Assembly: GCA_015143295.1 (NCBI GenBank)
Contig: CM026564.1
Span: forward strand, 14,620,416-14,684,415
Direction of reading: 5' to 3'
Length of the DNA: 64,000 nucleotides
Origin: Tetracentron sinense
Lineage: Eukaryota > Streptophyta > Magnoliopsida > Trochodendrales > Trochodendraceae
A program made the position numbers and the translations under genes. Each line of letters begins with the position of its first letter. Position 1 is the first letter of the stretch. The notes beneath the pieces were generated by a model, which was not told the DNA's origin, made no database searches, and saw only the letters and a program-made list of their open reading frames with translations. Shown one piece after another: positions 6,398 through 60,375 of the stretch.

Positions 6398-8584
6398 ACC
6401 CACCCTAGGAGTTAGAGTGAACTTTGGACGACTAATCATGGCTTACATGACTTGCTTGACAAACCAACCTGCAAAAACCCACAGAGCATATACAATAGAG
6501 GATATAAACAGCGGAAGCATAACTATAAGACACAGCGGAAGTCTAACAAACCTCTAAGTATATACACATGGTCCAAGTTTTAATACAAAGAAATCAAAAC
6601 AAAGAAAGTGCGGACATGCCCGCCAAAATACATGGATATAATCACTCATGCTCACCCACAGCTAATCCACTCAGAATCTAACACCACCTACTGATAACCC
6701 TCTACGGGAGGTTCCTCCAAAGGCTCCTCGACGTACTCCTCCTCCACCCATGGACCAGGAGCACAAACATCAAATGGAGCAGCAGCTCCCTCAGAACCTG
6801 CCGACATAAGAAGTACGGCTGAGCATGGAATACTCAGCGGGTACTAAGCACTAACCAACAGTCATAGCATACGGATAGCATACATAAAGCAGGAAACAAT
6901 TCACGCATATAAAGCAGGAATGATTCATATCATGACAATAAGGTAAAGCAATATAGTTCATCATATTGCATTCATAAAAGCCGGTAAAACCCTTGAAATC
7001 TTATGCACTTGACTTGACTGAAATTACCCTTTTTATGCTTGAAACCTTGTCTACCGCGTCATGCGTGTATCATGCTTGCTTCATGCGTGTATCATGCTTG
7101 TTTGTTCTGAAAAGTAATCTACTTGTGAGGGAAGGGAGACCCTTCTTCCTAGAATGCTCATGCTTGTCCTTCCACTTGTGAGATTCACTTGTGAGATGTC
7201 CTTGTGAGATGCACTTGTGAGGGAAGGGAGACCCTTCTTATGATATGTATGCACTTGCGAGGGAAGGGAGACCCTTCTTATGAAAATGCATGATTGTCTT
7301 GTCCTTGCCAAAAGCGAGGTAAAACATATCGTAGGATATGCCCCACCTCTAAATCTCATTCTTGAAAACCTTAGTAAATCATGTCATGTATGCGTGCTTA
7401 TGAGGTCGTGTGCATACTTGCATTTGGAATTAAATATGGCATTTGAGTAATTCATAACACATAACATCAATGATTTGAGCAATTTAGTATTCATATCATT
7501 TAGGGAAAGCGAACAATCACACTATCATGACCCTAGCAATTTCCATAAACCTTAAACATGCAATTTCTTAATTTATTATTCATTTCATTCACCTTGGCAT
7601 TTCATCAAACATGGTGCATTCATTATTTATTAACCCTACAACATGTTTTTCTAGGTGGGTTATGCTCACATCATACGTGTTTGTTCATTATGGATACAAT
7701 GCCCTCCCCATTTCATTCATCACATCATTTCACCTGGCATCCAATCGCCAATTCCGTCTCCATTCACCATTCACACCCATCCATCTCATAGCACATGTGT
7801 AAATGAAAGAAAACAATGAGAAATAAAGGAAAAGAATGAACTATAACTAGGAGGGTAGCAAGAAGTACCGACCTTGAAGAAATGAGGAAGAAACCCTTTC
7901 CAAAAACGACCGTGAGGTGCTGCCCTAGCTTGGGGAACGTTCTCCACGGGTGCTTGAGCCGTGATCTTGGAGAAAAGCCGGACTTGAAGTGATCTAGGGT
8001 CTCAAAACCCCTTTGATTCTTCTCTAAAAGCAAAACCCTAGCTTAGGAAACCCTTTCTCCTCTCTTCTAATCCCCCAAATCTTCTAAGTGTTGAGAATGA
8101 CCCTAAAGGCTCGGGCGATCTTATATAAGAAAGGGTATAACACCCGAATGTCGAAAATGCCCTTAGTGAAAATTCTGTAAAATGCGAGAACCGAGCGATC
8201 GGTGTTTATGACCGATCGATCGGTTGCCTACCGAGCGATCGGTGTGTTGATCGAGCTCTCGACCAAAAATCAACTCTTTGGAAAATTTCCCCATACAAAA
8301 ATCTTGACCAGTCGATAGCTACCGATCGATCGGTTTTGGACCGATCGATCGCTCTATGGACCAAGCGATCGGTTGCCTGTAGGTCCAGACTGTTTTGGCC
8401 ATATCTTTTGACCCGCTCGTCAGATTTTGACGATTCAACTTGCGTTGGGTTCGTACTTCGAAAGGAACATTTCTAACGTTTCGAAATTTCCAATTTCTTC
8501 CTTATTTATTAATTGTACTACTTTAAATGCAAAATGGCTATGAAAGTGTCATGCATTAAATGTGAAAAGGTCCGGGGCTCTACA
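6398..8584 (-). mobile_element. Gypsy LTR, slightly truncated at its left end
   Basis: This matches the 2407-bp LTRs of the intact element from the ACCCACCCTAGGAG stretch to the terminal GGGGCTCTACA at 8584. It lacks roughly the first 16 bases seen in complete copies (TGTCGCGACCC...). Element sense is minus, as for every LTR in the window. It carries the promoter-type TATATAAG (8122-8129), the palindrome array (8190-8373) and three leader hairpin units (7127, 7219, 7259). No TSD is visible because the left flank has been deleted. It is best read as an old solo or near-solo LTR inside L2. Confidence 0.88.
8190..8373. promoter_or_regulatory. LTR palindrome array (copy at 6398-8584)
   Basis: Seven 14-bp sites related to the palindrome ACCGATCGATCGGT start at 8190, 8211, 8230, 8250 (degenerate), 8321, 8340 and 8360. 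The spacings are 21, 19, 20, 71, 19 and 20 bp. In element sense the array is upstream of the TATA-like box at 8122-8129, so it belongs to U3. Confidence 0.7.
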
Positions 8585-25136: not shown

Positions 25137-25213
25137 TTTTTATATTTTTTTTTTCAGAGGAAAGCTGGGGTTTGGCGGACCCCGACCAGCTAAAATAAAT
25201 GATCAATAAAGAA

Positions 25214-37230: not shown

Positions 37231-38751
37231 AGATTGTAATGGACATCTGTGGCAGAAATAGACATTTGAAAGTTGGAAATTATGGCAATAGAAAGGGGTA
37301 TTGATCTAGCAATTGCTCATGGCATCCAGCATATTTCCATTGACTCAGACTCTTTGCAAGCTACTCGTTTTTTGAAGACTGTAGTGATCCACCTTGGTGT
37401 CTTGCAAATTTAGTTACCAAATGCACTCAAAAGTTGTCCAGATTCTCTTCTCCCTCCATACATCACATCTGGAGGGAAAGTAACTCAAGAGTAGGTTTTT
37501 TAGCTAAATTTTGTAATCTTAATTGTTCCACTATTCTCTTACCAAGGGATTTTCTGTCGCGACCCAAAACCCACCCTAGGAGTTAGAGTGAACTTTGGAC
37601 GACTAATCATGGCTTACATGACTTGCTTGACAAACCAACCTGCAAAAACCCACAGAGCATATACAATAGAGGATGACAGCGGAAACATGACTATAAAACA
37701 CAGCGGAAGTCTAACAACCTCTAAGTATATACACATGGTCCAAGTTTAATACAAAGAAAGTGCGGACATGCCCGCCAAAATACATGGATATAATGACTCA
37801 TGCTCACCCACAGCTAATCCACTCAGAATCTAACACCATCTACTGATAACCCTCTACGGGAGGTTCCTCCAAAGGCTCCTCGACGTACTCCTCCTCCACC
37901 CATGGACCTGGAGCACAAACATCAAATGGAGCAGCAGCTCCCTTAGAACCTGCTGACATAAGAAGTACGGCTGAGCATGGAATACTCAGCGGATACCAAG
38001 CACTAACCAACAGTCATAGCATACGTATAGCATACATAAAGCAGGAAACAATTCACGCATATAAAGCAGGAATGATTCATATCATGACAATAAAGTAAAG
38101 CAATATAATTCATCATGTTTGCAATCATAAAAGCCGGTAAAACCCTTGACTGAAATTACCCTTTTTATGCTTGAAACCTTGTTTACCGTGTCATGCTTGT
38201 ATCATGCGTGTATCATGCTTGCTTGTTCTGAAAAGTAATCTACTTGTGAGGGAAGGGAGACCCTTCTTCCTAGAATGCTCATGCTTGTCCTTCCACTTGT
38301 GAGATTCACTTGTGAGATGTCCTTGTGAGATGCACTTGCGAGGGAAGGGAGACCCTTCTTATGAAAATGCATGATTGTCTTGTCCTTGCCAAAAGCGAGG
38401 TAAAACATATCGTAGGATATGCCCCACCTCTAAATCTCATTCTTGAAAACCTCGGTAAATCATGTCATGTATACGTGCTTGTGAGGTCGTGTGCATACTT
38501 GCATTTGGAATTAAATATGGCATTGAGTAATTCATAACACATAACATCAATGATTTGAGCAATTTAGTATTCATATCATTTAGGGAAAGCGAACAACCAC
38601 ACTATCATGACCCTAGCAATTTCCATAAACCTTAAACATGAAATTTATTAATTTATTATTCATCTCATTCACCTTGACATTTCATCAAACATAGTGCATT
38701 CATTATTTATTAACCCTACAACATGCTTTTCTAGGTGGGTTATGCTCACAT

Positions 38752-41158
38752 TGTCGCGACCCAAAACCCACCCTACGAGTTAGAGTGAATCTTGGACGAC
38801 TTAATCATTACTTACATGACTTGCTTGACGAACCAACCTGCAAAACTCACAGAACATATACAATAGAGGATAACAGCGGAAGCATAACTATAAAACACAA
38901 CGGAAGTCTAACAAACCTCTAAGTATATATACACATGGTCCAAGTTTAATACAAAAGAAAACAAAACAAAGAAAGTGCGGACATGCCCGCCAAAATACAT
39001 GGATATAATCACTCATGCTCACCCACAGCTAAACCACTTAGAATCTAACACCACCTACTGATAACCCTCTACGGGAGGTTCCTCCAAAGGTTCCTCGACG
39101 TACTCCTCCTCCACCCAAGGGCTAGGAGCACAGACATCAAATGGAGCAGCAGCTCTCTCAGAATCTGCCGACATAAGAAGTACGGCTGAGCATGGAATAC
39201 TCAGCGGGTACTAAATACTAACCAATAGTCATAGCAAAACCATAGCAGTATAGGAAGCAGGAAGCATTTCACATATATAAAGCAGGAAACAATTCAAGCC
39301 TATAAACCAGGAATAATTCATATCATGACAATAAAGTAAAGGAGTATATAATCATGCTTGAATTCGTAATAGCCGATAAAACCCTTGAAAACACCGTGCA
39401 CTTGACTTGATTGGAAATACCATTTCCGTGCTTGAAACTTGTCATGTTGTCTTATCTTATCATATCATGCGTGTCATGCCATGTCATGCTTGCTTGGAAA
39501 GTAAACTACTTGTGAGGGAAGGGAGACCCTTCTTCCTAAATGCCCATGCTTGTCATGCCATGTCTTGTCATGCTTGCTTGTTCGGAAAAGTAATCTACTT
39601 GTGAGGGAAGGGAGACCCTTCTTCCTAAAATGCTCATGCTTGTCATGCCGTGTCATGTCATGCTTGTATCATGCTTGGAAGAGTAAACTACTTGTGAGGG
39701 AAGGGAGACCCTTCTTTCTAAATGCTCATGTCATGTCCTTTCACTTGTGAGATGTCCTTGTGAGATGTACTTGCGAGGGAAGGGAAACCCTTCTTATGAT
39801 ATGTATGTACCTGCGAGGGAAGGGAGACCCTTCTTATGATAATGCATGATTTACTTGTCCTTGCCAAAAGCGAGGTAAAACATATCGTAGGATATGCCCC
39901 ACCTCTAAATCCCATTCTTGAAAAACGTCGGTAATCCATGTCATGCATGCGTGCTCGTGAGATCGTGTGCATACTTGCATTTGGAATTAAATATGACAAT
40001 TTGGGTAATTTACAAAGCATAGCATATCACGATTTGAACAAGTAATAAGTCGCACATTTGAGAAATGTAAGAAACACACTATCATATGCCCTAACAATTT
40101 CATGAATAATTAAACATGTATTCCCTTAATTTATCCCTCATTTTATTCACCTTGGCATCTCATCAAACATAGTGTGTTCATTATTTATTAACCCTACAAC
40201 ATGCTTTTCTAGGTGGGTTTTACTCACATCACATATGTATGTTTATTATGGGTACAATGCCCTCCCCGTTCATCCATCACATCAATACACACGGCATCCA
40301 ATCGCCCACATTCATCTCCATTCATCATTCACCGTTCACCATTCACAACCCATCTCATAATATATATATATATATATATATGAAGGAAAACAAGAAGGAA
40401 TAAGGAAAGGAGAGGCTATAACTAGGAGAGTAGTAAAAAGTACCGACCTTGAAGAGATGAGGAAGAAACCCCTCTTCCAAACGACCGTGAGTTGCTGCCC
40501 TAGCTTGGAACACGAGCTCCACCCGAGCTTGAGCCGAGATCTTGAAGGAAAACGTGCTTGAGGATGATCTAGGGTCTCAAACCCCTTTGATTCCTCTTCA
40601 AAATGGAAACCCTAGATTTAGGAACCCTTTCTCCTCTCTTCTAATCTCCCAAATCTTCTAAGGGTTGAGAATGAGCCCTAAAGGCTCGGGCAATCCTATA
40701 TAAGAAAGGGTATAACACCCGAATGCCGAAAATGCCCTTAGTGAAAATTCTGTAAAACGCGAGGACCGAGCGATCGGTGTTAATGACCGATCGATCGGTT
40801 GCCTACCGATCGATCGGTTTCATAACCGAGCGATCGGTTAAAATTTCACTCTCTGGAAAATTTCTCCATACAAAAATCTTGACCAGTCGATAGCCTCCGA
40901 GCGATCGGTTTTGGACCGATCGATCGCTCCATGGACCGAGCGATCGGTGGTCTGCAGGTCCAAACTGTTTTGGCCATAACTTTTGATTCGTTCATCCGAT
41001 TTCGACGATTCAACTTGCGTTGGGTTCGTACTTCGAAAACGAACATTTCTGACATTTCAGAATTTCCAATTTCTTCCTTATTTATTAATTGCATTACTTT
41101 AAAGGAAAAATGGCTACGAAGGGTCATGCATAAATGTGAAAAGGTCCGGGGCTCTACA
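38752..41158 (-). repeat. 3' LTR of the whole gypsy element
   Basis: 2407 bp, reading TGTAGAGCCCC...GTCGCGACA in element sense. It contains the palindrome array, a TATA-like box (40697-40704), an (AT)n run (about 40359-40381) and five copies of the AAGGGAGACCCTT hairpin unit (starting at 39514, 39603, 39696, 39775 and 39815). It is identical in length to the 5' LTR. Confidence 0.95.
40765..40948. promoter_or_regulatory. U3 palindrome array (3' LTR)
   Basis: Seven 14-bp sites of the form ACCGAKCGATCGGT start at 40765, 40786, 40805, 40825, 40896, 40915 and 40935. They fall in a group of four and a group of three, with about 20 bp (two helical turns) between neighbours and 71 bp between the groups. 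In element sense they lie about 60-250 bp upstream of the TATA-like box, where enhancers are expected. The binding protein is unknown. Confidence 0.8.
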
Positions 41159-41170
41159 TCCTTCCCCCCT
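41159..41170 (-). other. Polypurine tract of the whole gypsy element
   Basis: AGGGGGGAAGGA in element sense lies directly before the 3' LTR. It is the expected primer site for plus-strand DNA synthesis. The equivalent purine stretch occurs at 60376-60388 beside another LTR. Confidence 0.88.
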
Positions 41171-41260: not shown

Positions 41261-44200
41261 TCATTCAAACAATTCCGGGTACTTCGCTTTGACTTCGGCT
41301 TCACGCTCCCATGTAGCTTCTTCCCGAGCATGGTGTTTCCATTGCACAAGAACCAAAGGGATTGTCTTGTTGCGAAGCACTTGATCTCTCCGATCCAATA
41401 TGTGAATCGGCTTCTCAACCAACGTGAGATCTTCTCGAATTTCCAACGGTTCCAATTCTAGTATATGCGAAGGGTCCGCAATGTACTTCCGAAGCATAGA
41501 CACGTGGAAAACGTTGTGAACCGCGGCCATGTGAGGTGGAAGAGCTACTCGATAAGCAACTTCACCAACCCGCGTGATAATCTCAAACGGTCCAACATAG
41601 CGAGGACTAAGCTTGCCTCTTTTGCCGAATCTCATAATCCCTTTGCTAGGAGATACTTTCACAAAAACTCGATCCCCTACTTGAAATTCCAAGTCCCTGC
41701 GGCGCGTGTCTGCATAGCTCCTTTGGCGATCTTGAGCGGCTTTCAACCGATCCCGGATGATCTTGACTATACTAGCAGTTTGCTCAATCAACTCCGGACC
41801 AAGTACTTTTCTTTCTCCTACCTCATCCCAGTAGAGAGGAGACCTGCAGCTTCGCCCATACAAAGCCTCGAACGGAGCCATTTGGATACTCGCCTGATAG
41901 CTATTGTTGTAGGCGAACTCCACCAAAGGCAAGTGCTCTTCCCAACTGCCTTTGAAATTCAGCATACAAGCCCGAAGCATATCTTCTATTACTTGGTTCA
42001 CCCTCTCGGTTTGTCCATCCGTTTGTGGATGAAAAGCAGTGCTGAAATCAAGTCGGGAACCCATAGCTTCCTGAAAGCTTTTCCAGAATCGTGATGTGAA
42101 TCTTGGATCCCGATCCGACACAATACTGACAGGCACTCCGTGCAACCTCACCACTTCCTTAATGTACAAAGCAGCTAACTGACTAGAGTTGAAAGTAGTT
42201 CGGTAAGGCAAGAAGTGAGCGGACTTCGTCAAACGATCCACTACTACCCATATCGCATCTGAACCCCTTGCCGTCTTTGGCAAGCCAACTATGAAATCCA
42301 TGGATATGTTCTCCCATTTCCACTCGGGAATCGGAAGGGACTGTAATAGACCTGCGGGCCGCATGTGTTCTGCTTTCACCTGTTGGCACACCAAGCACCG
42401 TGCTACATATTCCGCAACTTCCCTCTTCATATTCCGCCACCAAAAGTGACTCTTGAGGTTCCGGTACATCTTCATACCCCCTGGATGCACAGTGTACTTT
42501 GCCCGGTGGGCTTCATCCATAATCTCCCTCCGAAGATTTGCATTGGCAGGAACACACAGCCTTCCCTTGAATGTGATAGCACCTCGGCTAGTAAGAGAGA
42601 AGTCCTCACTACCTTTAGCAACTTCCTTGTCCCGATAAGCCAACAATTCAGCATCCGTGGCTTGGTATTCTTGGATCAAATCTATAATGTATGGCCGAAC
42701 CGTGACATTTGCCAGGATAGGACTACGGACAGAGTCATTCACACTAATGTCCAGATTTGCCAAGTCTTCAAGTAGCTTCCATTCCTGCACTAACATGCAT
42801 GCTAATAACCCCGGAGGTCTTCTACTCAAAGCATCAGCCACTACATTTGCTTTACCCGGGTGGTATTGAATGGTACAATCATAGTCCTTCAGAAATTCCA
42901 TCCAACGCCTTTGCCTTAGATTCAGCTCCTTTTGGGAAAAGAGATACTTGAGACTCTTGTGATCAGTGAACACATAGAACTCCACCCCATAAAGGTAATG
43001 ACGCCAAATCTTAAGTGCAAACACGACCGCCGCAAGCTCCAAGTCGTGCGTAGGATAGTTCTTCTCATGCTCCTTCAACTGCCTTGATGCATAGGCAATG
43101 ACTTTCTTGTGCTGCATGAGTACACACCCAAGTCCAACGTGTGAGGCATCACTATACACCTCGTACCCATAAGGTCCGGATGGTACCGTAAGGACAGGAG
43201 CTGTGGTAAGCCTCTTCTTCAGTTCCGTGAAACTGATCTCACACTTGTCGCTCCATACAAACTTGGCGTTCTTCCTTGTCAGGTAAGTGAGCGGTGCCGC
43301 AAGGCTAGAGAAACCCTCTACGAATCTCCTGTAGTAGCCTGCCAACCCAAGAAAACTGCGTATCTCCGTGACACTCTTGGGCCTCGCCCAATTCATGACT
43401 GCCTCTATCTTCTTTGGATCCACCGAAATGCCTTCCGCCGATACAACGTGGCCTAGGAATGCCACCTCTTCCAACCAAAATTCACACTTGCTAAGTTTGG
43501 CGTATAGCTTGTGCTCTCTTAGCGTTTCTAAAGCAAGGCATAGGTCGCGTGTGTGATCTTCCCGTGTCTGGGAATAGACCAGAATGTCATCAACAAACAC
43601 AATCACGCACCTATCAAGATATGGCCGGAACACCCGGTTCATCAAATCCATAAAGGCTGCCGGCGCGTTCGTGAGTCCAAAAGGCATCACCAAGAACTCG
43701 TAGTGTCCATATTGAGTCCTGAAAGCAGTTTTGGGAACATCTTCCGCCTTAATCTTCAACTGGTGATAACCCGATCGAAGATCTATCTTTGAGAAAAATC
43801 TCGCTCCCTTCAACTGATCGAACAAGTCATCAATCCTAGGCAAGGGATACCTATTCTTTATAGTGACTTTGTTCAATTGCCTGTAATCGACACACATCCG
43901 CATCGAGCCATCTTTCTTCTTAACAAACAACACCGGGGCACCCCATGGTGAGACACTTGGTCGAATGAAGCCAAGGCCTTGCAATTCCTCCAACTGAGTC
44001 TTCAACTCCTTGAGTTCAATAGGGGCCATTCTATATGGAGCTCTGAATACAGGAGCTGTGCCTGGTGCAAGCTCGATCATAAACTCAATCTCCCTGTCTG
44101 GAGGCAATCCTGGCAACTCCTCTGGAAATACATCCAGGAACTCACTCACAACCGGAATAGTCGATGAGTCCTTTGCCTCGGGGTTAGCTAAGCTCAACGC

Positions 44201-44659
44201 CGCAAAACGGGCAATGTCTCTACTTTTTAACCCCCGAAAGTGAAATGGTTTTCCTTTTACCGGCTTGAAGAGTATCATCTTCTCAAAGCAAGCTACATGC
44301 CCATGATGTGCTGCTAACCAATCCATTCCCAATATAATATCAAAGTCTTGGAATCCAAGGACGATGAGGTCAACCGCCAACTCGTGGCTTCCAACTTGGA
44401 CCGCACTATTTCTATACACTTTATTTGCCAATACTGTTTTGCCGAGCGGAGTCGAAATGGCTAACTCCTGTTTTAGCTGACTAGGCTCCACAGAAAAGCC
44501 TTCTGAAAAACTCGGCGAGACAAACGAATGAGTAGACCCGGTATCAATCAACACTCGAGCCAAATACTCATTGACTAGTAGGGTTCCTGAAATTTTAATA
44601 GTGGAGTTAATCCATGCATCAACAGCGTATACATGTAGGTATATATACATATAGAACAT
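41261..44659 (-). CDS. pol: Gypsy Pol polyprotein
   Basis: The open frame of 1132 residues encodes, in order: aspartic protease (DTGS at 39-42), reverse transcriptase (about 190-430, with FVDD at 355-358), RNase H (about 500-615; Asp504, Glu541, Asp566), and integrase. The integrase has a zinc finger (His718, His725, Cys755, Cys758) and catalytic Asp788, Asp849 and Glu885 (a D,D35E spacing). A GPF motif lies near 1023-1025 and a chromodomain-like segment at about 1085-1132 ([16 protein letters not shown]). The order RT-RNase H-integrase is that of Ty3/gypsy. The first 20 or so residues do not look like protease, so the annotated ATG is probably not the natural N-terminus of the mature product. 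Gag lies upstream in another frame. How Pol is expressed is not settled by the sequence. Confidence 0.95.
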
Positions 44660-45980
44660 GCCAAGTACGTACGCAGAGAATAGAGCATAACATAATAATC
44701 ACGAATAAAGAAATTAACTCTAACTGCGTACCTTGCACCACATCATCAGATGCAAGTGCATCACCCTCTGTCAAGGCAAAAACTCGCCCCTGGTTTGCCT
44801 GGCGAGACTGAGGTGTAGACCGGGTAGTCTGAGATGACGCCTGGTATGATCCTGCTGGGCGTGTCGGGGGCCTACTACCCTGAGACTGGCCTGGTAAATG
44901 CCGGCTAGGGCAATCCCTGATCATGTGGCCCTGGCGACCGCAATGATAACATCCACCAGATGCTCTTCGGCAATCTCCTGCCGGATGCCTTTTGCCGCAT
45001 GAAGTGCAGACCTCATATGTGTAGGCTGGAGGGACCGGAGGTGGTGTATACCTCACTGCCTGAGGGGTAACTGGCCGTGGGGCCGGAAGAGCCTGAGGTC
45101 GAGGTGCCTGTGGCACGTACTGCCGAGGTGCTGGAGGCGCATAAGTCGGCCTCATCTGTGGTGCTGGCCATGTATACTGATAAGGACCAGTCCGGGCCCG
45201 CCTCTCTAAAGGTACCAAACCACTAGATTGGCCTCTCGCCAATTCTCTCTTCTTGGACACGGTCTCTGAATTGGTCTCAACCAACAAGGCTTTATCCACT
45301 ACTTCGGCGTAAGTGGCGTGCCTGAAGACCGACACTTTCTCCATGATGACATCCTTGAGCCCTTGCTCAAACCTCCTCGCCTTCATTGCCTCGGTGGCAA
45401 TCATATGTGTCGCGAAGCGTGATAGCTCCGAGAACTTGGCCTCATAAGCGGCCACAGACATCGAACCTTGCTCAAGGTTGATGAATTCTCTCTCTTTCCT
45501 TTCCCGAGCTCCAACCGGGAAATACTTCTTATAGAACGTGTCCTTAAACTCCTCCCAAGTCCACGGTTGACCTTGCATGGTCAAGTCCCGTGTCCTCAAT
45601 GCGGACAACCACCAATGGTGGGCTTCGCCCTCTAGCATAAAAACTGCCCATGCCACTTTCTCTTCCTCTGTAGGAGAGAGCACCGCAAATATCTTCTCAA
45701 CCTGGAGGATCCAAGCCTCCGCAGTAAGGGGGTCCACACTCCCATGGAAGGATGGAGGCCTCAATCTCCTGAATGCCTCAACTCCAGCTGTACGATGTAC
45801 TGGAGCTGCGGGCGGTGGAGTAGGTGCCGCCGACGATGGTATAGCTTGCCGAGCCGCCAGTATGGCGAGTGTCTCAGCAATAGAGCCTAAGACCTGGGAG
45901 AGGTCAGGCTGCTCATCCTCACCCTGTGAAGAAGAGGAAGCTCTGGTATGTGGCCCACGACCCCGTGTGTTCCGTCTCAT
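44619..45980 (-). CDS. gag: Gypsy Gag protein
   Basis: The 453-residue frame starts [18 protein letters not shown]. Residues about 70-245 match the retrotransposon Gag capsid domain ([30 protein letters not shown]). Residues 260-320 are rich in Pro and Ala. Two zinc knuckles follow: a short variant [13 protein letters not shown] (325-337) and a canonical [14 protein letters not shown] (344-357), which would bind the genomic RNA. The last 35 or so residues are hydrophobic, unlike usual Gag ends, and overlap the start of the pol frame by 41 nt. The frame is open throughout. It is the 5' gene of the element, starting about 345 bp after the primer-binding site. Confidence 0.93.
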
Positions 45981-46324
45981 GACTAAAGTCCTGAGAATAA
46001 TAACACCACATGAGTCTAACTTGAAACCACCGTTTATTTCAATGTCATTTCACAATAATTCAATCTGTATTAGTTGTATAATATTAATATACAGCACATC
46101 AAGTCATCAAAGTATTCATCACATTATACTTATACTTTAGTGTTCTAGCGTACCTAGGACCGTACTTGGTTAAAGCAACCATTTTAGACTAAGACTAAGG
46201 TTTAGTCTTACACTTGGAACCAGACTCGTTCCCGACTCACTTCCTTCCTAGCTTGTTTCCTAACATATGCTCTTGTCAAGTCGTGGTATAAGATTCTAAG
46301 TGACCCTAAAGACCTAAAGCCTAA
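45981..46324 (-). other. Untranslated leader between PBS and gag
   Basis: An AT-rich leader without a substantial open frame in element sense. It presumably holds packaging signals, but I see no distinctive structure. Confidence 0.6.
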
Positions 46325-46336
46325 GCTTTGATACCA
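46325..46336 (-). other. Primer-binding site for initiator-Met tRNA
   Basis: TGGTATCAAAGC in element sense, 4 bp inside the 5' LTR. It matches the complement of the plant initiator methionine tRNA 3' end (TGGTATCAGAGC) at 11 of 12 positions. This is the usual primer in plant gypsy elements. Confidence 0.88.
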
Positions 46337-48285
46337 CTTCTGTCGCGATCCAAAACCCACCCTAGGAGTTAGAGTGAATCTTGGACGACTTAATCATTAC
46401 TTACATGACTTGCTTGACGAACCAACCTGCAAAACTCACAGAACATATACAATAGAGGATAACAGCGGAAGCATAACTATAAAACACAACGGAAGTCTAA
46501 CAAACCTCTAAGTATATATACACATGGTCCAAGTTTAATACAAAAGAAAACAAAACAAAGAAAGTGCGGACATGCCCGCCAAAATACATGGATATAATCA
46601 CTCATGCTCACCCACAGCTAAACCACTTAGAATCTAACACCACCTACTGATAACCCTCTACGGGAGGTTCCTCCAAAGGTTCCTCGACGTACTCCTCCTC
46701 CACCCAAGGGCTAGGAGCACAGACATCAAATGGAGCAGCAGCTCCCTCAGAATCTGCCGACATAAGAAGTACGGCTGAGCATGGAATACTCAGCGGGTAC
46801 TAAATACTAACCAATAGTCATAGCAAAACCATAGCAGTATAGGAAGCAGGAAGCATTTCACATATATAAAGCAGGAAACAATTCAAGCCTATAAACCAGG
46901 AATAATTCATATCATGACAATAAAGTAAAGGAGTATATAATCATGCTTGAATTCGTAATAGCCGATAAAACCCTTGAAAACACCGTGCACTTGACTTGAT
47001 TGGAAATACCATTTCCGTGCTTGAAACTTGTCATGTTGTCTTATCTTATCATATCATGCGTGTCATGCCATGTCATGCTTGCTTGGAAAGTAAACTACTT
47101 GTGAGGGAAGGGAGACCCTTCTTCCTAAATGCCCATGCTTGTCATGCCATGTCTTGTCATGCTTGCTTGTTCGGAAAAGTAATCTACTTGTGAGGGAAGG
47201 GAGACCCTTCTTCCTAAAATGCTCATGCTTGTCATGCCGTGTCATGTCATGCTTGTATCATGCTTGGAAGAGTAAACTACTTGTGAGGGAAGGGAGACCC
47301 TTCTTTCTAAATGCTCATGTCATGTCCTTTCACTTGTGAGATGTCCTTGTGAGATGTACTTGCGAGGGAAGGGAAACCCTTCTTATGATATGTATGTACT
47401 TGCGAGGGAAGGGAGACCCTTCTTATGATAATGCATGATTTACTTGTCCTTGCCAAAAGCGAGGTAAAACATATCGTAGGATATGCCCCACCTCTAAATC
47501 CCATTCTTGAAAAACGTCGGTAATCCATGTCATGCATGCGTGCTCGTGAGATCGTGTGCATACTTGCATTTGGAATTAAATATGACAATTTGGGTAATTT
47601 ACAAAGCATAGCATATCACGATTTGAACAAGTAATAAGTCGCACATTTGAGAAATGTAAGAAACACACTATCATATGCCCTAACAATTTCATGAATAATT
47701 AAACATGTATTCCCTTAATTTATCCCTCATTTTATTCACCTTGGCATCTCATCAAACATAGTGTGTTCATTATTTATTAACCCTACAACATGCTTTTCTA
47801 GGTGGGTTTTACTCACATCACATATGTATGTTTATTATGGGTACAATGCCCTCCCCGTTCATCCATCACATCAATACACACGGCATCCAATCGCCCACAT
47901 TCATCTCCATTCATCATTCACCGTTCACCATTCACAACCCATCTCATAATATATATATATATATATATATGAAGGAAAATAAGAAGGAGTAAGGAAAGGA
48001 GAGGCTATAACTAGGAGAGTAGTAAAAAGTACCGACCTTGAAGAGATGAGGAAGAAACCCCTCTTCCAAACGACCGTGAGTTGCTGCCCTAGCTTGGAAC
48101 ACGAGCTCCACCCGAGCTTGAGCCGAGATCTTGAAGGAAAACGTGCTTGAGGATGATCTAGGGTCTCAAACCCCTTTGATTCCTCTTCAAAATGGAAACC
48201 CTAGATTTAGGAACCCTTTCTCCTCTCTTCTAATCTCCCAAATCTTCTAAGGGTTGAGAATGAGCCCTAAAGGCTCGGGCAATCC

Positions 48286-48293
48286 TATATAAG
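48286..48293 (-). promoter_or_regulatory. TATA-like box of the 5' LTR
   Basis: CTTATATA in element sense lies between the palindrome array and a conserved GCCCGAGCCTTTAGGGCTC stretch about 20-35 bp downstream, where transcription would be expected to start. The same box is present at 40697-40704 and 8122-8129, but absent from the LTR copies at 37555-49668 and 55636-57840. Confidence 0.65.
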
Positions 48294-48353
48294 AAAGGGT
48301 ATAACACCCGAATGCCGAAAATGCCCTTAGTGAAAATTCTGTAAAACGCGAGG

Positions 48354-48537
48354 ACCGAGCGATCGGTGTTAATGACCGATCGATCGGTTGCCTACCGATC
48401 GATCGGTTTCATAACCGAGCGATCGGTTAAAATTTCACTCTCTGGAAAATTTCTCCATACAAAAATCTTGACCAGTCGATAGCCTCCGAGCGATCGGTTT
48501 TGGACCGATCGATCGCTCCATGGACCGAGCGATCGGT
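48354..48537. promoter_or_regulatory. U3 palindrome array (5' LTR)
   Basis: Seven sites with the same spacings as in the 3' LTR (21, 19, 20, 71, 19, 20). It lies upstream of the TATA-like box at 48286-48293. It is the copy placed to drive element transcription. Confidence 0.8.
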
Positions 48538-49272
48538 GGTCTGCAGGTCCAAACTGTTTTGGCCATAACTTTTGATTCGTTCATCCGATTTCGACGATTC
48601 AACTTGCGTTGGGTTCGTACTTCGAAAACGAACATTTCTGACGTTTCAGGATTTCCAATTTCTTCCTTATTTATTAATTGCATTACTTTAAAGGAAAAAT
48701 GGCTACGAAGGGTCATGCATAAATGTGAAAAGGTCCGGGGCTCTACACACATCATACGTGTTTGTTCATTATGGATACAATGCCCTCCCCATTTCATTCA
48801 TCACATCATTTCACACGGCATCCAATCGCCAATTCCGTCTCCATTCACCATTCACACCCGTCCATCTCATATCACATGTGTAAATGAAAGAAAACAAAGA
48901 GAAATAAAGTAAAAGAATGAACTATAACTAGGAGGGTAGCAAGAAGTACCGACCTTGAAGAAATGAGGAAGAAACCCCTTCCAAAAACGACCGTGAGGTG
49001 CTGTCCTAGCTTAGGGAACGCTCTCCACGAGTGCTTGAGCCGTGATCTTGGAGAAAAGCCGGACTTGAAGTGATCTAGGGTCTCAAAACCCCTTTGATTC
49101 TTCTCCAAAAGCAAAACCCTAGCTTAGGAAACCCTTTCTCCTCTCTTCTAATCCCCCAAATCTTCTAAGTGTTGAGAATGAGCCCTAAAGGCTCGGGTTA
49201 AACTCTTAAGGTAAGAGTGAACCGACCAAAAGACCATAATATCCTTACTGAGATTTCTACAAAAACGCGAGT

Positions 49273-49456
49273 ACCGAGCGATCGGTGTTAATGACCGATC
49301 GATCGGTTGCCTACCGATTGATCGGTTTCATAACCGAGCGATCGGTTAAAATTTCACTCTCTGGAAAATTTCCCCATACAAAAATCTTGACCAGTAGATA
49401 GCCTCCGAGCGATCGGTTTTGGACTGATCGATCGCTCCATGGACCGAGCGATCGGT
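49273..49456. promoter_or_regulatory. Palindrome array (solo LTR in L10)
   Basis: Sites start at 49273, 49294, 49313, 49333, 49404, 49423 and 49443, with the standard spacing. Two sites show CG-to-TG changes (ACCGATTGATCGGT, ACTGATCGATCGCT). Confidence 0.72.
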
Positions 49457-49796
49457 GGTCTGCAGGTCAAAACTGTTTTGGCCATAACTTTTGACTCGTT
49501 CGTCCGATTTTGACGATTCAACTTGCGTTGGGTTCGTACTTCGAAAACGAACATTTCTGACATTTCGGAATTTCCAATTTCTTCCTTATTTATTAATTAT
49601 ACCTCTTTAAAGGCAAAATGGCAACGAAAGTGTCATGCATTAAATATGAAAAGGTCTGGGGCTCTACATTTTCCCCCCGATCTCTCCACCATTTTGAAGG
49701 ACAGATCTGGTTGCAAATACCTTAGATTGTAATTTTCCTTCTTTTTAATTTATCTAGACCGGTCCACCTAATCCCAGCTTACCCTCCAAAAAAAAA

Positions 49797-52433
49797 ATTC
49801 CTAACCAGGACTCCTTTTTTGACATGGTCTATTACGACGCATTAAATCAATCTATCCCAACTTTCAGAATTGGATTCGTTCAGTTTTAGTCCTCGTGCGC
49901 CCAATTTAAGCAACAAGGTTCATAAGTTGGCTAAGTTTCAAAGTATTAAAAATGTAACCTAGAGTTGCGCACAGAATCCCAACAGGGACTCCTTTTACGA
50001 CATCATCTGCTCTAAAACATTTTTACAAACTATGTCAATAGAATTAGTTTCATTCAGTTTTGGCTTCGTTAGCCCAATTTCGGCAATGAGGGACATAAGT
50101 TGCCTAAGTTTCAAGGCACTAAAAAAATAACCTACAACTACGAACAAGACTCAATTTGGGGCTCCTTTTTCTACGCGATCTGCTCCGACACATGTTTTAA
50201 CCAAGAGGATTTTACTGTTTGTAGGCTCATTGGGCCATAGACGTCCCACTCTTTCCAGTTTGACAAACATTTCGGGTTTTGTGGAGCCCACCCCAAAGTA
50301 CTTCTCTTTCGGCCAAGATAGTGGGGGCGTATATGGTTAGCAATCCCCTTAGTTTATAGTGGGGGCATATATGTCACTCCGATGCATTTGTTTCAATCTA
50401 TCATAAAATCTAAAATTGGTTTTGTTCAACCTCGTCTGCTCGATTTGGGCAACGAGGTTAAGAAGTTCCCTAAGTTTCAAACTACTAAAAAAAAGTAAAC
50501 TAGAGCTATGAACAAAATCCCAATAGGGACTCCTTTGTCGACGCGGTCTGCTCCAAAGCATTTGTTTCTATTAATCTTAACTTTTAAAATTTTTTTCGTT
50601 GAATTTGGACCTCGTTTGCCCGATTTAGGCACCAAGATTCATAAGTTGCGTAATTTTTAACCTACTAAAAAGTAATCTGGAGTTGCGCACAGAATCCCAA
50701 CAAAGATTCCTTTTTCAATGCGGTCTACTCAGAAGCATTTGTTTCACATATCTAAATTGTTAGAATATGTTTCGTTCAATTTAAACCCCGTTTGCCGATT
50801 TAGGCAACGTGGTTAATAAGTTGCCAAAGTTTGAAAATAACAAAAAAAAGTAACCTAAAGCTCCACATAGAATCCAAACAGGACTCCTTTTTCAAGGAGG
50901 TGTGCTCTGACGTATTGGTTTCAATATATCTTAACTTTTAGAATTAATTTCATTCAATTTAGTCCTCATTTTTCCGATTTCGGTTACGTGGTTCGTTCCT
51001 AAGTTGCCTAAGTTTCAATATATTAAAAAAAATTAGCCTAGACCTGCGCACATAATCCCAACAGAGATTCTTTTTTCCGACGCGGTTTACTCCGACTCAT
51101 TTGTTTTAATCTATCTTAATTTTTGAAGTGGTTTCATTTAGTTTGCACCTCGTTTGTCCGATTTAGGCAACAAAGTTCATAAGTTGCCTAAGTTTCAAAC
51201 TATTAAAAAAAGTAACTAGAGCAATAGACAGAATCCCAACTGTGACTCCTTATTCGACGCGGTCTGCTTTGACTCATATGTTTCAATCTATCCTAACTTT
51301 TACAATTAGTTTCGTTCGGTTTAGACCCAGTTTGTTGTTTTCCCGGTTTGGGCAACGAGGTTAATAAGTTGTCTGTTTAAAACTATTAAGAAAAGTCACC
51401 TAGAACTACGCACAGAATCCCAAAGTACTCTTTTTGGAAGACGTGTGTTCCAACGCATTTGTTTCAATCTATCATAACTTCTAGAATTGGTTTCGTTCAG
51501 TTTTGACCTCGCCTGCCCGATTTCGGTAATGAAGTTAAGAAGTTGCTTAAGTTTCAAACTACTAAAAATAGTAAATTAGAGCTATGCACAAAATCCCAAA
51601 TGGGACTCCTTTGTCGACACAGTCTGTGCCAAAACATTTGTTTCAATCTATCCTAACTCTTATAATTTGTTTCGTTCAGTTTGGAACTCATTTGCTCTAT
51701 TTAGGCAACGAGGTTCATAAGTAGCATAAGTTTTAACCTACTAAAAAAAAGTAAACCTAGAGTTGCACACAGAATCCAAATAGAGATTCCTTTTTCAACG
51801 GGATCTACTCCAAAGCAATTGTTTCAATCTATCTTTAATTTTTAGAATTAGTTTCATACAGTTTAGACCAAGTTTACCCGATTTAAGCAACGAGGTTAAT
51901 AAGTTGACCAAGTTTGAAAATACTAAAAAAGTAAGCTTGAGCGACACACAGAATCCCAACAGGACTCCTTTTTCAACGAGGTGTGCTCCAAGGCATTTTT
52001 TTCAATTTATCATAATTTTTAGAATTGGCATCGTTCAATTTAGATCTTGTTTACCTGATTTGGCCAACGAGGTTCATAAGTCACATAAGTTTTAGACTCC
52101 ATAAAAAGTAACCTAGAGCTGCAGACAGAATCCCAACCGACTACTTTTTCTGCATGGTCTACTCTGACGCATTTGTTTTAACGTATCCTCACTTCTAGAA
52201 ATGTTTTTGTTCAGTCTAGACCTCGTCTACCCGATTTGGCAACGAGGTTAAGAAGTTGGCTAAGTTTCAAACTACTAAAAAAGTAGCCTAGAATTGCACA
52301 CAAAATCTCAATAGGGAATCATTTTCCGGAGCGGTTTGCTCCAAAGCATTTGTTGAAATCTATCATAATTTTTAGAATTATATTCGGTCAATATATACCT
52401 CGTTTGCTCAATTTGGGCACCAACGTTTATTTT
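49797..52433. repeat. Satellite array, about 14 monomers
   Basis: Tandem monomers with the GACTCC block at about 50525, 50703, 50881, 51062, 51243, 51425, 51602, 51783, 51962, 52140 and 52318, giving a period of about 177-182 bp. One monomer (about 50160-50390) contains extra sequence of roughly 170 bp, including AGCCCACCCC and GGGGGCGTATATGG. Monomer variants recur in the same order 3.86 kb downstream. No open frame or promoter is evident. Confidence 0.92.
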
Positions 52434-55635: not shown

Positions 55636-57840
55636 TGTCGCGACCCAAAACCCACCCTAGGAGTTAGAGTGAACTTTGGACGACTAATCATGACTTGCTT
55701 GACAACCAACCTGCAATGACAGCGGAAACATAACTATAAAACACAGCGGAAGTCTAACAACCTCTAAGTATATACACATGGTCCAAGTTTAATACAAAGA
55801 AATCGAAACAAAGAAAGTGCGGACATGCCCGCCAAAATACATGGATATAATTACTCATGCTCACCCACAGCTAATCCACTCAGAATCTAACACTACCTAC
55901 TGATAACCCTCTACGGGAGGTTCCTCCAAAGGCTCCTCGACGTACTCCTCTTCCACCCATGGACCAGGAGCACAAACGTCAAATGGAGCAGCAGCTCCCT
56001 CAGAACCTGCCGACATAAGAAGTACGGCTGAGCATGGAATACTCAGCGGGTACCAAATACTAACCCATAGTCATAGCATAAAAATGGCAATACATAAATC
56101 AGGAGCAATTCATATATGTTAGACGGAAACAATTCATATCATACAAGGAAGTAAAGCAATTTATAATCATGCTTGTATTTCGTAGGAAGCCGATAAAACC
56201 TTTTGAAAACATCGTGCACTTGACTTAGCTTGAAATATCTTTTCGTACTTGAAAGCTTGTCGTGTTTGTCTTGCTTGATCTTGTCGAGCGTGTCGTACGT
56301 GTCATGTCATGCATGTCATGCGTGCTTGCTTGTGATCATGTAACTTGTGAGATACACTTGTGAGATATCCTTGTGAGATGCGCTTGAGAGATGCCTTGAG
56401 AGGGAAGGGAGACCCTTCTTTATGCAATGCACTTGAGAGGGCAGGGAGACCCTTCTTCATGATATGAATGTACTTGCGAGGGAAGGGAGGCCCTTCTTCA
56501 TGATATGCACTTGTGAGTGAGGGGAGACCCCTCGTGGAATGTTGGTTCTTGTTTTCTTGTGAAAAGCGAGGTAAAACATATCGTAGGATATGTCCCACCC
56601 CTAACCATGTTCTTGAAAACCTCGGTAAATCATGTCATGCATGCCGTGCTCATGGGAATCGTGTACATACTTGCATTAAATTTAAATATGACATTTGGGT
56701 AATTCACAACACATATAGCATCAATGATTGAGCAATGTAATATTCACATCATTTAGGGAAAGCAAGAAAACACACTATCATAGGCCCTAGCAATTTCCAT
56801 AATTTATTAGGCATGCATTTCTTAATTTACAACTCACTTTATTCACCTTGGCATTTCATCAAACATGGTGTGTTCATTATTCATTTAAACCTAAATCATG
56901 CTTTTCTAGGTGAGTTTACTCGCATCATAAATGTGTGTTTATTATGGATACAATGCCCTCCCCCGTTTCAATCATCACAACACAACCATTGGCATCCAAT
57001 TGCCTATTCCATCTCCATTCACCACGTTCACACTTCCAAACTCATAGCACATGTACAAAGGAAGGAAACAAAGAGAAATAAAGGAAAAGAGAAGCTATAG
57101 CTAGGAGGGTAGCAAGAGGTACCGACCTCGATCAAGTGAGGAAGAAATCCCCTTCCAAAAACGACCGTGAGTTGCTGCCCTAGCTTGAGGAGATGCTCCT
57201 CACGAGCTTGTGCCTTGATCTTGAAGAAAAATGGGCTTGAGTTGAGTGTGGGTTCACAAACCCCTTGATTTCTGTCCAAAATGGAAATCCTAGGTTTAGG
57301 AATCGCCCTCTCCTCTCTTCTTATCTCCCAATCTCTCTAAGTGTTGAAATGAAGCCCTAAAGGCTCGGGTTAAACTCTTAAGGTAAGAGTGAACCGACCA
57401 AAAGACCATAATACCCTTACTGAAATTTCTGCAAAAACGCGAGTACCGAGCGATCGGTGTTAATGACCGATCGATCGGTTACCTATCGAGCGATCGGTGT
57501 GTTGACCGAGCTCTCGACCAAAAATCAACTCTCTGGAAAATTTCCCCATACAAAAATCTTGACCAGTCGATAGCTACCGATCGATCGGTTTTGGACCGAT
57601 CGATCGCTCTATGGACCGAGCGATCGGTTGCCTGCAGGTCCAGACTGTTTTGGCCATAACTTTTGACTTGTTCGTCCAATTTTGACGATTCAACTTGCGT
57701 TGGGTTCGTACTTCGAAAACGAACATTTCTGACGTTTCGGATTTTCTAATTTCTTCCTTATTTATTAATTATACCTCTTTAAAGGCAAAATGACAACGAA
57801 AGTGTCATGCATTAAATGTGAAAAGGTCCGGGGCTCTACA
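55636..57840 (-). mobile_element. Inner solo gypsy LTR
   Basis: A complete LTR of 2205 bp, TGTCGCGACCC to GGGGCTCTACA, flanked by ACTTA at 55631-55635 and 57841-57845. No internal region remains. Its promoter part is the TATA-poor variant. The palindrome array starts at 57445, 57466, 57485, 57505, 57576, 57595 and 57615. It is inserted in an LTR of the same family. Confidence 0.92.
57445..57628. promoter_or_regulatory. Palindrome array (inner solo LTR)
   Basis: Seven sites, spacing 21, 19, 20, 71, 19, 20. The fourth site keeps the left half ACCGAG but has a CTCTCG right half, as in the LTR at 6398-8584. This points to a shared sub-lineage. Confidence 0.72.
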
Positions 57841-58188: not shown

Positions 58189-60375
58189 TGTCGCGACCCA
58201 AAACCCACCCTAAGAGTTAGAGTGAATCTTGGACGACTTACCAAGACCTACATGACATGCTTGGCAAACCATTCTGCAAAATACATGGAGTATATACGAT
58301 AGAGGACAATAATAGCGGAAACATACCCTACATAGCACAGCGGAAGTCTAACACAACCTCTATGTATATATATGTAATCCAAGTTTGTACAAAATGAAGT
58401 CAACAAAAAAAGGTGCGGACATGCCCGCCAAAATACATGAATATACTTTCTCAACCTCACCCACAGATCACTCAGAATCTACCACCTAATAGTACTCATC
58501 TACATGAGGCTTTTCCGTAGGTTCCTCAACATACTCCTCCTCCACCCAAGGGCCAGGAGCACAGATATCAAATGGAGCAGCTACTCCCTCAGTACCTGTT
58601 GACATAAACGTACGGCTAAGCATGGAATACTCAGCATTTACTAATTGCTAACTAACAGTCACAGCATAACAATAACAATATATAAAGCAGGAAGCAATTC
58701 TTATCATAACAGGAAAGTAAAACAGTTTATATTAATGCTTGCATCACATAAAAGCCGATAAATCTCCTGAAATCATCGTGCGCTTGAATTGACTTGAAAG
58801 TACTCTTTTCGTGCTTGAAAAATTTGTCATGTCTATCTTGCTTGATCTTGTCGAGCGTGTCATGTCATGCGTGTCATGCGTACTTGCTTGGAATTTAAAC
58901 ATGCTCATGTAACTTGTGAGATGCGCTTGTGAGATACACTTGGGAGGGAGGGGAGACCCCTATTTCAATGATATGCACTTGAGAGGGAAGGGAGACCCTT
59001 CTTTCAATGATATGCACTTGTGAGTGAGGGGAGACTTCTCATGAAAGGAAAGGAAGTGTAAACTCCCTCCTATGCAATGTTGGTTCTTGTCTTCTTGTCA
59101 AAAGTGAGGTAAAACATATTGTAGGATATGTCCCACCTCTAAACCTTATTCTTGAAAACGCCGGTAACCCATGTCATGCATGCCGTGCTCGTGGGATCGT
59201 GTACATACTTTCATTTGGAATTAAATATGACATTTGGGATTTCAACAATATATAGAATATCATAATTTTAAACAAGTAAGTATTCATGTCATTTAAAGAA
59301 AGCAATTAATCACACTATCATAAACCCTAGCAATTTTATACGCTTTTAAACATGCATTTCTTGATTTACAACTCATTTTCTTTACCTTGGCATTTCATCA
59401 AACATGTGGTGTGTACATTATTTGTTAAGGCCTACACCATACTTTTCTAGGTGGATTTATGTTCACAACATACATGTGTGTTTATTATTGGTACAATACC
59501 CTTCCCATTCCATTCATCACAACACATTCAAATGGCATCTATCGCCCAACGCCCATCTCCATCCATGCATCCCAACTCATAGCACAGTTATAGTTTAGGG
59601 AAAATAAAGAAATAAGGAAAGAAATGAGGAAGCCATAACTAGGAGGGTAGCAAAAGGTACCGACCTTGAAGAAGCAAGGAAAAGCCCTCCAAAACGTGAG
59701 TGGATTCGCTGCCCTAACTTGGAGAACGTGCTCCTCACAAGCTTGTGCCTTGGATTGAAGAATCCAAGCCTTGAACCCTTGATTTGCTTCAAGAGGGTGC
59801 TCTAGGTTATAATCCCCTTTTTTTTCGTCTCTCCCTTTCTCTCAAATAACCTAAGTATGGTGAATGAGACCCCCAAGACTCGGGCAAGCCTTAATAGGTA
59901 AGGGTGTAACGCCCAAATGACGAAACAGCCCTTAATGAAATTCTGCAAAACCCGATAGACCAATCGATCAGTGGTAAATACCGAGCGATCGGTCGCCTAC
60001 CAAGCGGCCAGTGTTTTGACCGATCGACTGGTCAAAAAAAAGCTCTCTGGATTTTTTTCCATAAAAAAAAGTGCACCAGTCGATAGCTACCAATCAATCG
60101 GTTATAGACCGATCGATCGCTACATGGACCGAGCGATTGGTGCTCTGCAAATTTCTACATTGATTCCATTTTTCACTCATTCCTATTAATTGGACTTATC
60201 CTACTTCCCTTTTGACCTTTTCTAAACATGACTAGGACTTTTTCAAGGCTATAGTTCATTACTAAATATTTTATTTAATTATTTTATAACACCATTGCAC
60301 CTTTTCTCAAATGCTCCAAATTCTCATTTTATGAACAAGGAGATTACAAGGACATCATGCCTTCGAGGCTCTACA
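58189..60375 (-). mobile_element. 3' LTR of a broken gypsy element
   Basis: 2187 bp from TGTCGCGACCC to GAGGCTCTACA. It is the most divergent LTR of the family in this window. It is followed by a polypurine tract and pol on the minus strand, so it is the 3' LTR of an element whose left part (in element sense) is gone. It lies inside the outer LTR that starts at 55574. Confidence 0.88.
59959..60141. promoter_or_regulatory. Palindrome array (most diverged LTR)
   Basis: Sites start at 59959, 59980, 59999, 60019, 60089, 60108 and 60128, giving 21, 19, 20, 70, 19 and 20 bp. Several sites are changed (ACCAATCGATCAGT, ACCAAGCGGCCAGT, ACCGATCGACTGGT), yet most keep ACC and GGT or AGT ends. Confidence 0.7.

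Follow-up and report, generated by a model that had tools for sequence, protein, structure and literature searches.

A palindrome array of near-fixed spacing shared by Ty3/gypsy and Sirevirus-like Ty1/copia long terminal repeats of Tetracentron sinense, a likely exchangeable promoter module

A stretch of 64,000 nucleotides from Tetracentron sinense (GCA_015143295.1, contig CM026564.1, positions 14,620,416 to 14,684,415; hereafter the window) contains a Ty3/gypsy element, probably a chromovirus, whose long terminal repeats (LTRs) each carry seven 14-bp palindromes upstream of a TATA-like box. The same sites, at nearly the same spacing and around an alignable centre, were found in the LTRs of a Sirevirus-like Ty1/copia family in which the sequence between the sites is mostly different. 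Taken as a whole, these observations incline us, with rather more confidence than doubt, to the reading that the array is a modular, exchangeable promoter-proximal platform of the RM-box kind for a dimeric factor.

The seven sites of the focal LTR start at 40765, 40786, 40805, 40825, 40896, 40915 and 40935, with steps of 21, 19, 20, 71, 19 and 20 bp. An earlier note on this DNA had reported seven 14-bp palindromes with these spacings, and its coordinates and spacings were exact on recheck. It was also right to put the array in the promoter region of the LTR, ahead of a TATA-like box (CTATATAA at 40696 on the plus strand, the element sense being minus). Five of the seven sites match ACCGAKCGATCGGT without a mismatch, and the sites at 40896 (TCCGAGCGATCGGT) and 40915 (ACCGATCGATCGCT) have one mismatch each; the G variant ACCGAGCGATCGGT is an imperfect palindrome. 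Read in the element sense, the LTR start is followed by ~210 bp, 3 palindromes, 57 bp, 4 palindromes, ~61 bp and the TATA-like box. The ratio of observed to expected CpG is 1.92 in this module versus 0.64 in the remaining LTR. With up to 2 mismatches allowed, ACCGANCGATCGGT was matched 78 times on both strands of the window, against 0.44 matches expected. The parts of the array, and its other copies in the window, are as follows.

40935..40948, minus strand: palindrome 1 in element order, sense ACCGATCGCTCGGT
40915..40928, minus strand: palindrome 2, sense AGCGATCGATCGGT, one mismatch
40896..40909, minus strand: palindrome 3, sense ACCGATCGCTCGGA, one mismatch
40839..40895, minus strand: 57-bp central stretch, sense GGCTATCGACTGGTCAAG...TTTGTATGGAGAAATTTTCCAGAGAG..., with an alignable counterpart in copia LTRs
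40825..40838, minus strand: palindrome 4
40805..40818, minus strand: palindrome 5
40786..40799, minus strand: palindrome 6
40765..40778, minus strand: palindrome 7, closest to the TATA-like box
40696..40703, minus strand: TATA-like box, ~61 bp past palindrome 7, TTATATAG in sense
48354..48537, minus strand: array of the focal element's 5' LTR, all seven sites
49273..49456, minus strand: older array copy, all seven sites
8190..8373, minus strand: older array copy, site 4 gone, register intact (91 = 20+71)
57445..57628, minus strand: older array copy, site 4 gone, register intact (91 = 20+71)
59959..60141, minus strand: most decayed array copy, 70-bp group gap, one site below threshold

The same note had placed the full set of positions in five further LTRs of the window. 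This holds for the copies at 48354 and 49273, but those at 8190 and 57445 have kept the register without site 4; the 70-bp gap given for the copy at 59959 was confirmed, although that copy is also one site short at the threshold used.

Arrays also occur in LTRs with quite different flanks. One example is an element on contig C1 (C1:32027746-32038861) with paired LTRs of ~1217 bp that are 97.2% identical. Its polymerase is of the Ty1/copia type (RVT_2, integrase, gag_pre-integrs, Pol_BBD), whereas the polymerase of the focal element is not, since its gag, RVT_1, integrase and chromodomain matches are all of the Ty3/gypsy type. Local alignment of the gypsy and copia U3 (unique 3') regions extended over 189 bp without a gap, from palindrome 1 to 5 bp past palindrome 7, and the module has the same orientation in both. 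With the palindromes masked, alignment of the gypsy and copia centres scored 59, versus 29 at most in 300 shuffles (shuffle tests, and the substitution ratios given below, are uncorrected for multiple tests).

Arrays were collected from loci of the genome (1.16 Gb, 1479 contigs) only where sites 3 and 4 could be recognised with at most 4 mismatches, at a distance of 66-76 bp, and where the flanks were long enough. This gave 63 arrays (56 distinct modules; loci are numbered with an L). The gap between the two groups of sites was 71 bp in 59 of them and 69-70 bp in 4, and 300 of 303 steps measured 19, 20 or 21 bp within a search range of 17-23 bp, which misses more decayed arrays. Copia loci were assigned by explicit list and all others were counted as gypsy, which for some of the latter (L066, L070 and L101 among them) was decided by U3 resemblance and not by polymerase. 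L088 and L094, in which the array lies too near the end, and L072 and L073, from the same element as L067 and L068, stand outside these counts. One layout, 20, 19, 71, 20, 19, 21 in the element sense, was the commonest in both superfamilies (24/48 gypsy and 7/15 copia arrays). The layout 20, 19, 71, 21, 19, 21 was found in 6/15 copia arrays and 1/48 gypsy arrays, and 21 bp stood at both variable steps in 8/48 gypsy arrays.

For the comparison between superfamilies, 11 arrays that lacked the full pattern of three sites, gap and four sites were excluded. This left seven-site arrays from 38 gypsy loci and 14 copia loci, with 16 and 9 distinct sets of spacers, respectively. Identities of spacers and centres were taken from equal-length pairs only. 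Between gypsy and copia the sites were 88% identical and centres of the same length 77%, while spacers of the same length were 24.5% identical versus 23.0% expected from composition. The 60 bp upstream of the module were 28.6% identical (27.5% expected), and the U3 upstream of the module had no gypsy-copia similarity beyond chance. Within gypsy the sites were 94% identical versus 84% for spacers, and within copia 93% versus 87%. Length has thus been nearly kept across the superfamilies where the letters of the spacers have mostly been lost, and this is the strongest evidence that spacing matters.

The palindrome is abundant. Exact ACCGATCGATCGGT occurs at 30,033 places in the genome, versus 3 for a letter-reversed control, and ACCGATCGATCGGT-type pairs with a 4-8 bp spacer gave 13,689 forward and 13,826 reverse matches, in which a pair may count twice (control 0). 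When loci were fetched with a palindrome-free U3 probe, 29/30 had seven sites and one had six; these 30 were the best-scoring of 3,071 candidates, include the focal LTR itself and are biased to close relatives. The earlier claim that the array is kept across complete copies is borne out by this count, but constancy within a family mostly reflects shared descent, so the comparison between families is the stronger test. A TATA[AT]A sequence lies 45-48 bp past the array in 15/15 copia arrays and 57-65 bp past it in 34/48 gypsy arrays. Searches of two other collections, viral_contigs for the palindrome pair and genome_contigs for the central stretch, gave no match, and are uninformative because both collections are viral/prokaryote. 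An eighth site was seen twice, as an extra 19-bp step downstream in L066 and as a degenerate extra site 22 bp upstream in L070, and site number can therefore change nearly in register.

The copia family, here called copia B, has the features of a Sirevirus: copia pol, an extra gene before the 3' LTR, RM boxes in the LTR and before that gene and, where a Sirevirus has more than one polypurine tract (PPT), two PPT-like tracts in each of the two linkers examined. In the copies counted for this comparison it has seven sites per LTR, plus two before the extra gene. This gene is a third open reading frame (ORF3), which lies after pol and ahead of the 3' LTR. It matches PF20167 ('putative plant transposon protein', E 7.7e-29) and is without internal stops in many copies (125 scored of 2642 candidates). 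Ten further ORF3-bearing copies were picked from the top of the 125-copy scored list. Their LTR arrays had seven sites in nine cases and four in L078, and in all ten a pair of palindromes (at most 2 mismatches each) precedes ORF3, with a step of exactly 21 bp. The pair is followed by CTTTCGTGAA in 9/9 copies for which the following letters were available (L095 is not among the nine), and by the word TTATAAAA in 8/9, L089 reading TTTTAAAA. The palindrome pair and TATA-like box upstream of ORF3 look like an internal promoter. An apparent internal promoter of this make-up before the PF20167 ORF of a copia element was also noted (L064 368-402 and L064 599 to L076 655); its presumed leader contains a third, degenerate palindrome and what may be a splice donor (AAAAGGTAAGATT). 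Of 36 ORF3 pairs, 34 gave a finite ratio of nonsynonymous to synonymous substitution rates (dN/dS). These ratios were 0.15-0.48, the highest coming from the near-identical pair L105/L106, and indicate a protein kept by purifying selection.

A second class of palindromes was found beside more distant PF20167 genes. The loci concerned were the eight best of 150 scored PF20167 matches (two of them, L105 and L106, being near-identical), and their ORF3 is 34-43% identical to that of copia B over the best pieces. No ACCGATCGATCGGT-type site (at most 2 mismatches) was present in any of the eight ORF3 loci of 3.5 kb or in the six LTR stretches belonging to them, and palindromes centred on GGTCGACC, with extended arms, take its place. 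Pairs of these lie 20-22 bp apart upstream of ORF3 in 6/8 loci (0/300 shuffles of each locus), and 3,124 pairs at 22-bp spacing were found genome-wide (control 0). Steps of 22 bp occur in 6/6 LTR stretches, with palindromes on both sides of a centre in five; in L118 the flagged palindromes are only downstream of it. This centre resembles TTTTGTATGG..AATTT.CCAGAGAG. In 4/6 copies it is more similar to the gypsy centre than 1000/1000 shuffles are, but in L115 and L117 some shuffles scored as high (114/1000 and 19/1000, respectively). Against the copia centre, some shuffles scored as high in L115, L118, L116 and L113 (186, 63, 11 and 1 of 1000, respectively). A polymerase was found beside the ORF3 in one of three upstream stretches (L120; not L112 or L119) and is copia. 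It is 80-81% identical to that of copia B over the integrase and reverse transcriptase pieces and 63% between them. Since the ORF3 beside it (L111) is only 35% identical to that of copia B, ORF3 diverges faster than pol. The stretch L119, which leads up to another copia ORF3 of the GGTCGACC class, contains a window-type array with seven sites (17-200); this may be a nested or inserted gypsy LTR.

Four LTRs (L121-L124) with a gypsy-type U3 start, GTTATGGCCAAAAC, bear GGTCGACC-type palindromes and a centre containing TTTTGTATGG. The U3 start of the window element scored 62 and 67 against two of these (0/500 shuffles as high) and 71 and 86 against the other two (scored without shuffles), versus 18 against copia, a chance value matched by 281/500 shuffles. 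The centre of the window element, in turn, scores 59 with copia B versus 22-25 with the four LTRs that start with GTTATGGCCAAAAC. Centre similarity and U3-start similarity are incongruent, and these scores suggest that the module passes from element to element separately from the remaining LTR; because the window centre is closer to copia than to gypsy-type LTRs of similar U3 start, the module was probably exchanged more than once. Transfer between copia and gypsy could have occurred by template switching or recombination. Alternatively, the module may have been kept alike because both element types are read by the same factor. In the sequences upstream of L121-L123 (L125-L127), the sole polymerase match was a 31-residue gypsy piece on the opposite strand of L126.

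The promoter-proximal position of the array, its symmetric repeats about two turns apart, its nearly kept spacing and its reuse before an internal gene argue for a binding platform for a dimeric factor. Each palindrome would be occupied by a sequence-specific nuclear factor, most likely one of the plant, in dimeric form, and neighbouring dimers ~two turns apart may bind cooperatively. The central stretch would have another binding partner. Palindromes and centre would jointly switch on transcription at the TATA box and might also maintain the LTR in an open state. A cooperative platform for a dimeric host or element factor had been proposed before; the spacing nearly kept between superfamilies fits a platform, but the dimer is read from symmetry alone. 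A host factor is the default reader of the palindromes.

Several observations weigh against this reading. The helical phasing of all seven sites, which the earlier note saw as facing one side of the DNA, had to be given up, since the phase coherence of the seven centres is 0.19 at 10.5 bp/turn (relaxed B-DNA), versus 0.96 at 10.0. Within the groups coherence at 10.5 bp/turn reaches 0.72-0.74, so it is between the two groups that the phase is lost. For the GGTCGACC layout of L114 the opposite was found (0.85 at 10.5 and 0.17 at 10.0 bp/turn), and no single phase rule holds. The narrow spread of steps and gaps is partly by construction, because the search was limited to 17-23 and 66-76 bp. The gypsy-copia test is in effect one independent comparison of two lineages, over ~30 spacer positions, and the five spacers were equal in length in 378, 518, 282, 532 and 481 of 532 comparisons, with unequal lengths mostly 20 versus 21 bp. 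Single spacers ranged from 1% to 56% identity, the last, at 56%, being above chance; and the 60 bp downstream of the module were 34.6% identical versus 28.8% expected (42.6% over the first 8 bp), so the shared block may extend slightly further. The gypsy nature of L121-L124 was assigned by U3 similarity only. TATA[AT]A was not found within 140 bp in 14/48 gypsy arrays, and no host-gene promoter was seen among 7 stretches, a small sample drawn from 50 listed exact sites in the first 18.5 Mb of C1.

Those 7 stretches had been chosen as having no obvious exact partner among the sites listed. Six proved to be LTR arrays as well, complete with the central stretch, and nothing resembled a host promoter; a host regulon that uses the palindrome was rejected on this small sample. 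The seventh, L099, has two palindromes (ACCGATCGATCGGT and GCCGATCGATCGGT) at a step of 22 bp (313-348), and its context matches none of the families described.

The reader of the palindromes could instead be encoded by the elements themselves. The PF20167 (Transposase_32) product of ORF3 would then bind the palindromes and activate or de-silence its own LTR and gene, and gypsy elements, in which no such gene was seen, would ride along. This would resemble VANC and its motif arrays in VANDAL transposons, where VANC6 also acts on an unrelated motif-bearing element (PMC5735166, available sections). The same palindrome does stand in the LTR and upstream of ORF3, and the copia relatives with a diverged ORF3 carry a different palindrome class. 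ORF3 changes faster than pol and yet, from its dN/dS and the many copies without internal stops, remains a kept protein. Near its N-terminus is the motif PKRRRL, which we take to resemble a nuclear localization signal. The comparison of palindrome with protein covers two palindrome classes only, however, and the near-identical L105 and L106, 2 of the 8 loci, have no pair upstream of ORF3. The searches made gave no DNA-binding activity for PF20167, and its comparison with solved structures gave chance-level matches only (E 0.52). The ORF starts with a hydrophobic stretch as an envelope-like protein might have, and in at least one copy, L073, a different reading frame holds the N-terminal portion. 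Moreover, env-less Sireviruses retain the RM boxes of their LTRs (PMC2829016, Table 3, a paper available in part). We consider a reader encoded by ORF3 unlikely on balance. Slightly less likely again is the fuller proposal that ORF3 reads family-specific palindromes in the LTR and in its own promoter, that palindrome and protein change together, and that gypsy elements with a captured module spread on the copia factor.

A role for the array at the RNA level seems improbable. Hairpins from read-through or 3' LTR RNA would in that case feed small-RNA silencing or serve the RNA cycle. The 184-nt array folds far below shuffles (z -5.4 for gypsy and -7.3 for copia), but such folding is expected of any array of a single palindrome. 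Palindromes in maize Sirevirus LTRs are hot spots of small-RNA mapping (PMC5311732, available sections), yet a pure silencing target should not be kept, and near-constant spacing, central stretch and the pair before the TATA-like box upstream of ORF3 would all be unexplained. Functionless tandem slippage of a ~20-bp unit, with the layout shared by descent only, is more improbable still. The 19-21 bp units do look like a degenerate tandem repeat, and eight-site arrays exist, but between superfamilies the spacers, taken overall, lost their similarity while the sites did not, and the spacing hardly changed. CpG is the fastest-decaying class in methylated DNA, and the CpG-rich sites are the best-kept part of the array in gypsy and in copia. 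Binding by a dimeric factor, by default one of the host, thus remains the reading that we prefer.

Arrays of a similar kind have been published. Palindromic RM boxes were described in Sirevirus (Ty1/copia) LTRs, upstream of the TATA box and of the env-like gene (Bousios et al. 2010, PMC2829016). According to the available sections of that paper, they vary between elements, number at least 8 copies per element, are CpG-rich and lie 200-400 bp into the LTR. They were termed Sirevirus-specific within a set of Ty1/copia elements, no common factor was found, and their function and binding partner were left open in 2010. The earlier statement that no plant cis-element with such a layout had been described is therefore not upheld, and the array belongs to a known kind. 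Like RM boxes, the palindromes are repeated in the first half of the LTR, start ~210 bp in, lie upstream of a TATA-like box and are CpG-rich; against the criterion of at least 8 copies, the focal gypsy element has seven per LTR and 14 over both LTRs. Unlike RM boxes, ACCGATCGATCGGT reads CCG..CGG and does not have the CGG-CCG core, to which the same sections list one exception (Tnd-1). The gypsy chromovirus host, the nearly fixed 19-21 bp steps, the 71-bp gap and the central stretch were likewise not found in them. The RM box given there for Vitis, CGGTCGACCG, includes the GGTCGACC core, which is also that of the second palindrome class described here for copia relatives.

Other systems resemble this one in part. 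VANC anti-silencing proteins bind dense arrays of the 9-base YAGTATTAY in VANDAL DNA transposons, as shown experimentally (PMC5735166); the mark of such a system is an element protein that binds the motif and brings about demethylation. From what the available sections give, both systems have a short motif that is dense in non-coding parts, a motif and a variable protein that differ together, and an unrelated element that can carry the motif. Unlike VANDALs (DNA transposons, DUF1985/DUF287), the elements here are LTR elements with PF20167, and the likeness is known from sequence alone. Grande, according to the title of Gomez-Orte et al. 2013 (cited in PMC11728184 and PMC7264820), likewise has an extra 3' internal gene with its own promoter, and its product is nuclear, but element and gene are different here. 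Similarity to PF20167 has been reported for an ORF of sunflower Athila in the available part of PMC11728184. ONSEN, with heat-responsive elements, and EVADE, with W-boxes, also have cis sites in their LTRs, which are read by host transcription factors (PMC12786077, available sections). Unlike the array here, ONSEN and EVADE have known factors and other motifs. We know of no long palindrome array in either.

The letters of the palindrome, used as a literature query, returned no plant paper by title and abstract, and a search on promoter parts shared by copia and gypsy found nothing with its narrow terms. As far as the literature was searched, mostly without subscription papers, the gypsy chromovirus host, the near-fixed layout with its centre, the alignment of the two superfamilies without a gap and the way in which palindrome and ORF3 change together appear to be new, and no earlier case was found of a trans-acting regulator with its own cis-code across plant LTR superfamilies. 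The same sites and spacing in two unrelated LTRs lead one to expect one factor, and the function of RM boxes becomes a testable question. If the module passes between superfamilies, LTR promoters would be exchangeable parts, and gypsy copies may rely on signals whose evolution took place alongside copia elements. With the two motif classes, the specificity of a host factor or of the PF20167 protein could readily be tested. If ORF3 does encode the reader, plant LTR retrotransposons would have a trans-acting regulator with a cis-code of its own, common to superfamilies.

The remaining parts of the focal element are as follows.

38752..41158, minus strand: 3' LTR, 2407 bp (TGTAGAG start at 41158, GCGACA end at 38752; self-BLAST)
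46341..48747, minus strand: 5' LTR, 2407 bp (self-BLAST)
38747..38751, no strand, with a second copy at 48748-48752: target-site duplication ATGTG
41160..41169, minus strand: polypurine tract adjoining the 3' LTR upstream, sense GGGGGGAAGG
46325..46336, minus strand: primer-binding site TGGTATCAAAGC, presumably of the tRNA-iMet type
41261..44698, minus strand: pol ORF, stop to stop, with protease, RVT_1, RNase H, integrase and C-terminal chromodomain
44619..46049, minus strand: gag ORF, stop to stop, with Retrotrans_gag and zinc knuckle

The chromodomain match (pol residues 1100-1144) has 22.1 bits, under the curated cut-off of 25.1, and the element may be a Tekay-like chromovirus. The two LTRs differ at 8 positions. 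With ~1.3e-8 substitutions per site and year, the insertion would have an age of the order of 0.1 million years. The element is nested in an older LTR (window 37552-38751 and 48748-49668), which itself bears the array at 49273-49456. Downstream of the TATA-like box, the focal LTRs contain tandem repeats with units of ~89 bp and of 37-41 bp, whose core resembles GAGGGAAGGGAGACCCTTCTT (39465-39730 and 47054-47319), and tandem repeats with a similar core are also present at 56391-56530 and 58930-59035.

Diverged satellite-like tandem repeats of ~177-182 bp, with 359-bp dimers too, lie among the LTR elements of the window (50376-52430, 54232-55573, 20369-21017 and 24551-25140). Reverse transcriptase ORFs of other elements, with RVT_1 only, are on the plus strand at 14679-16118 and 61598-62599. 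On contig C1, among the matches listed (to 37.6 Mb), the central stretch is far denser past ~31.5 Mb than before, and the region beyond is perhaps the pericentromere.

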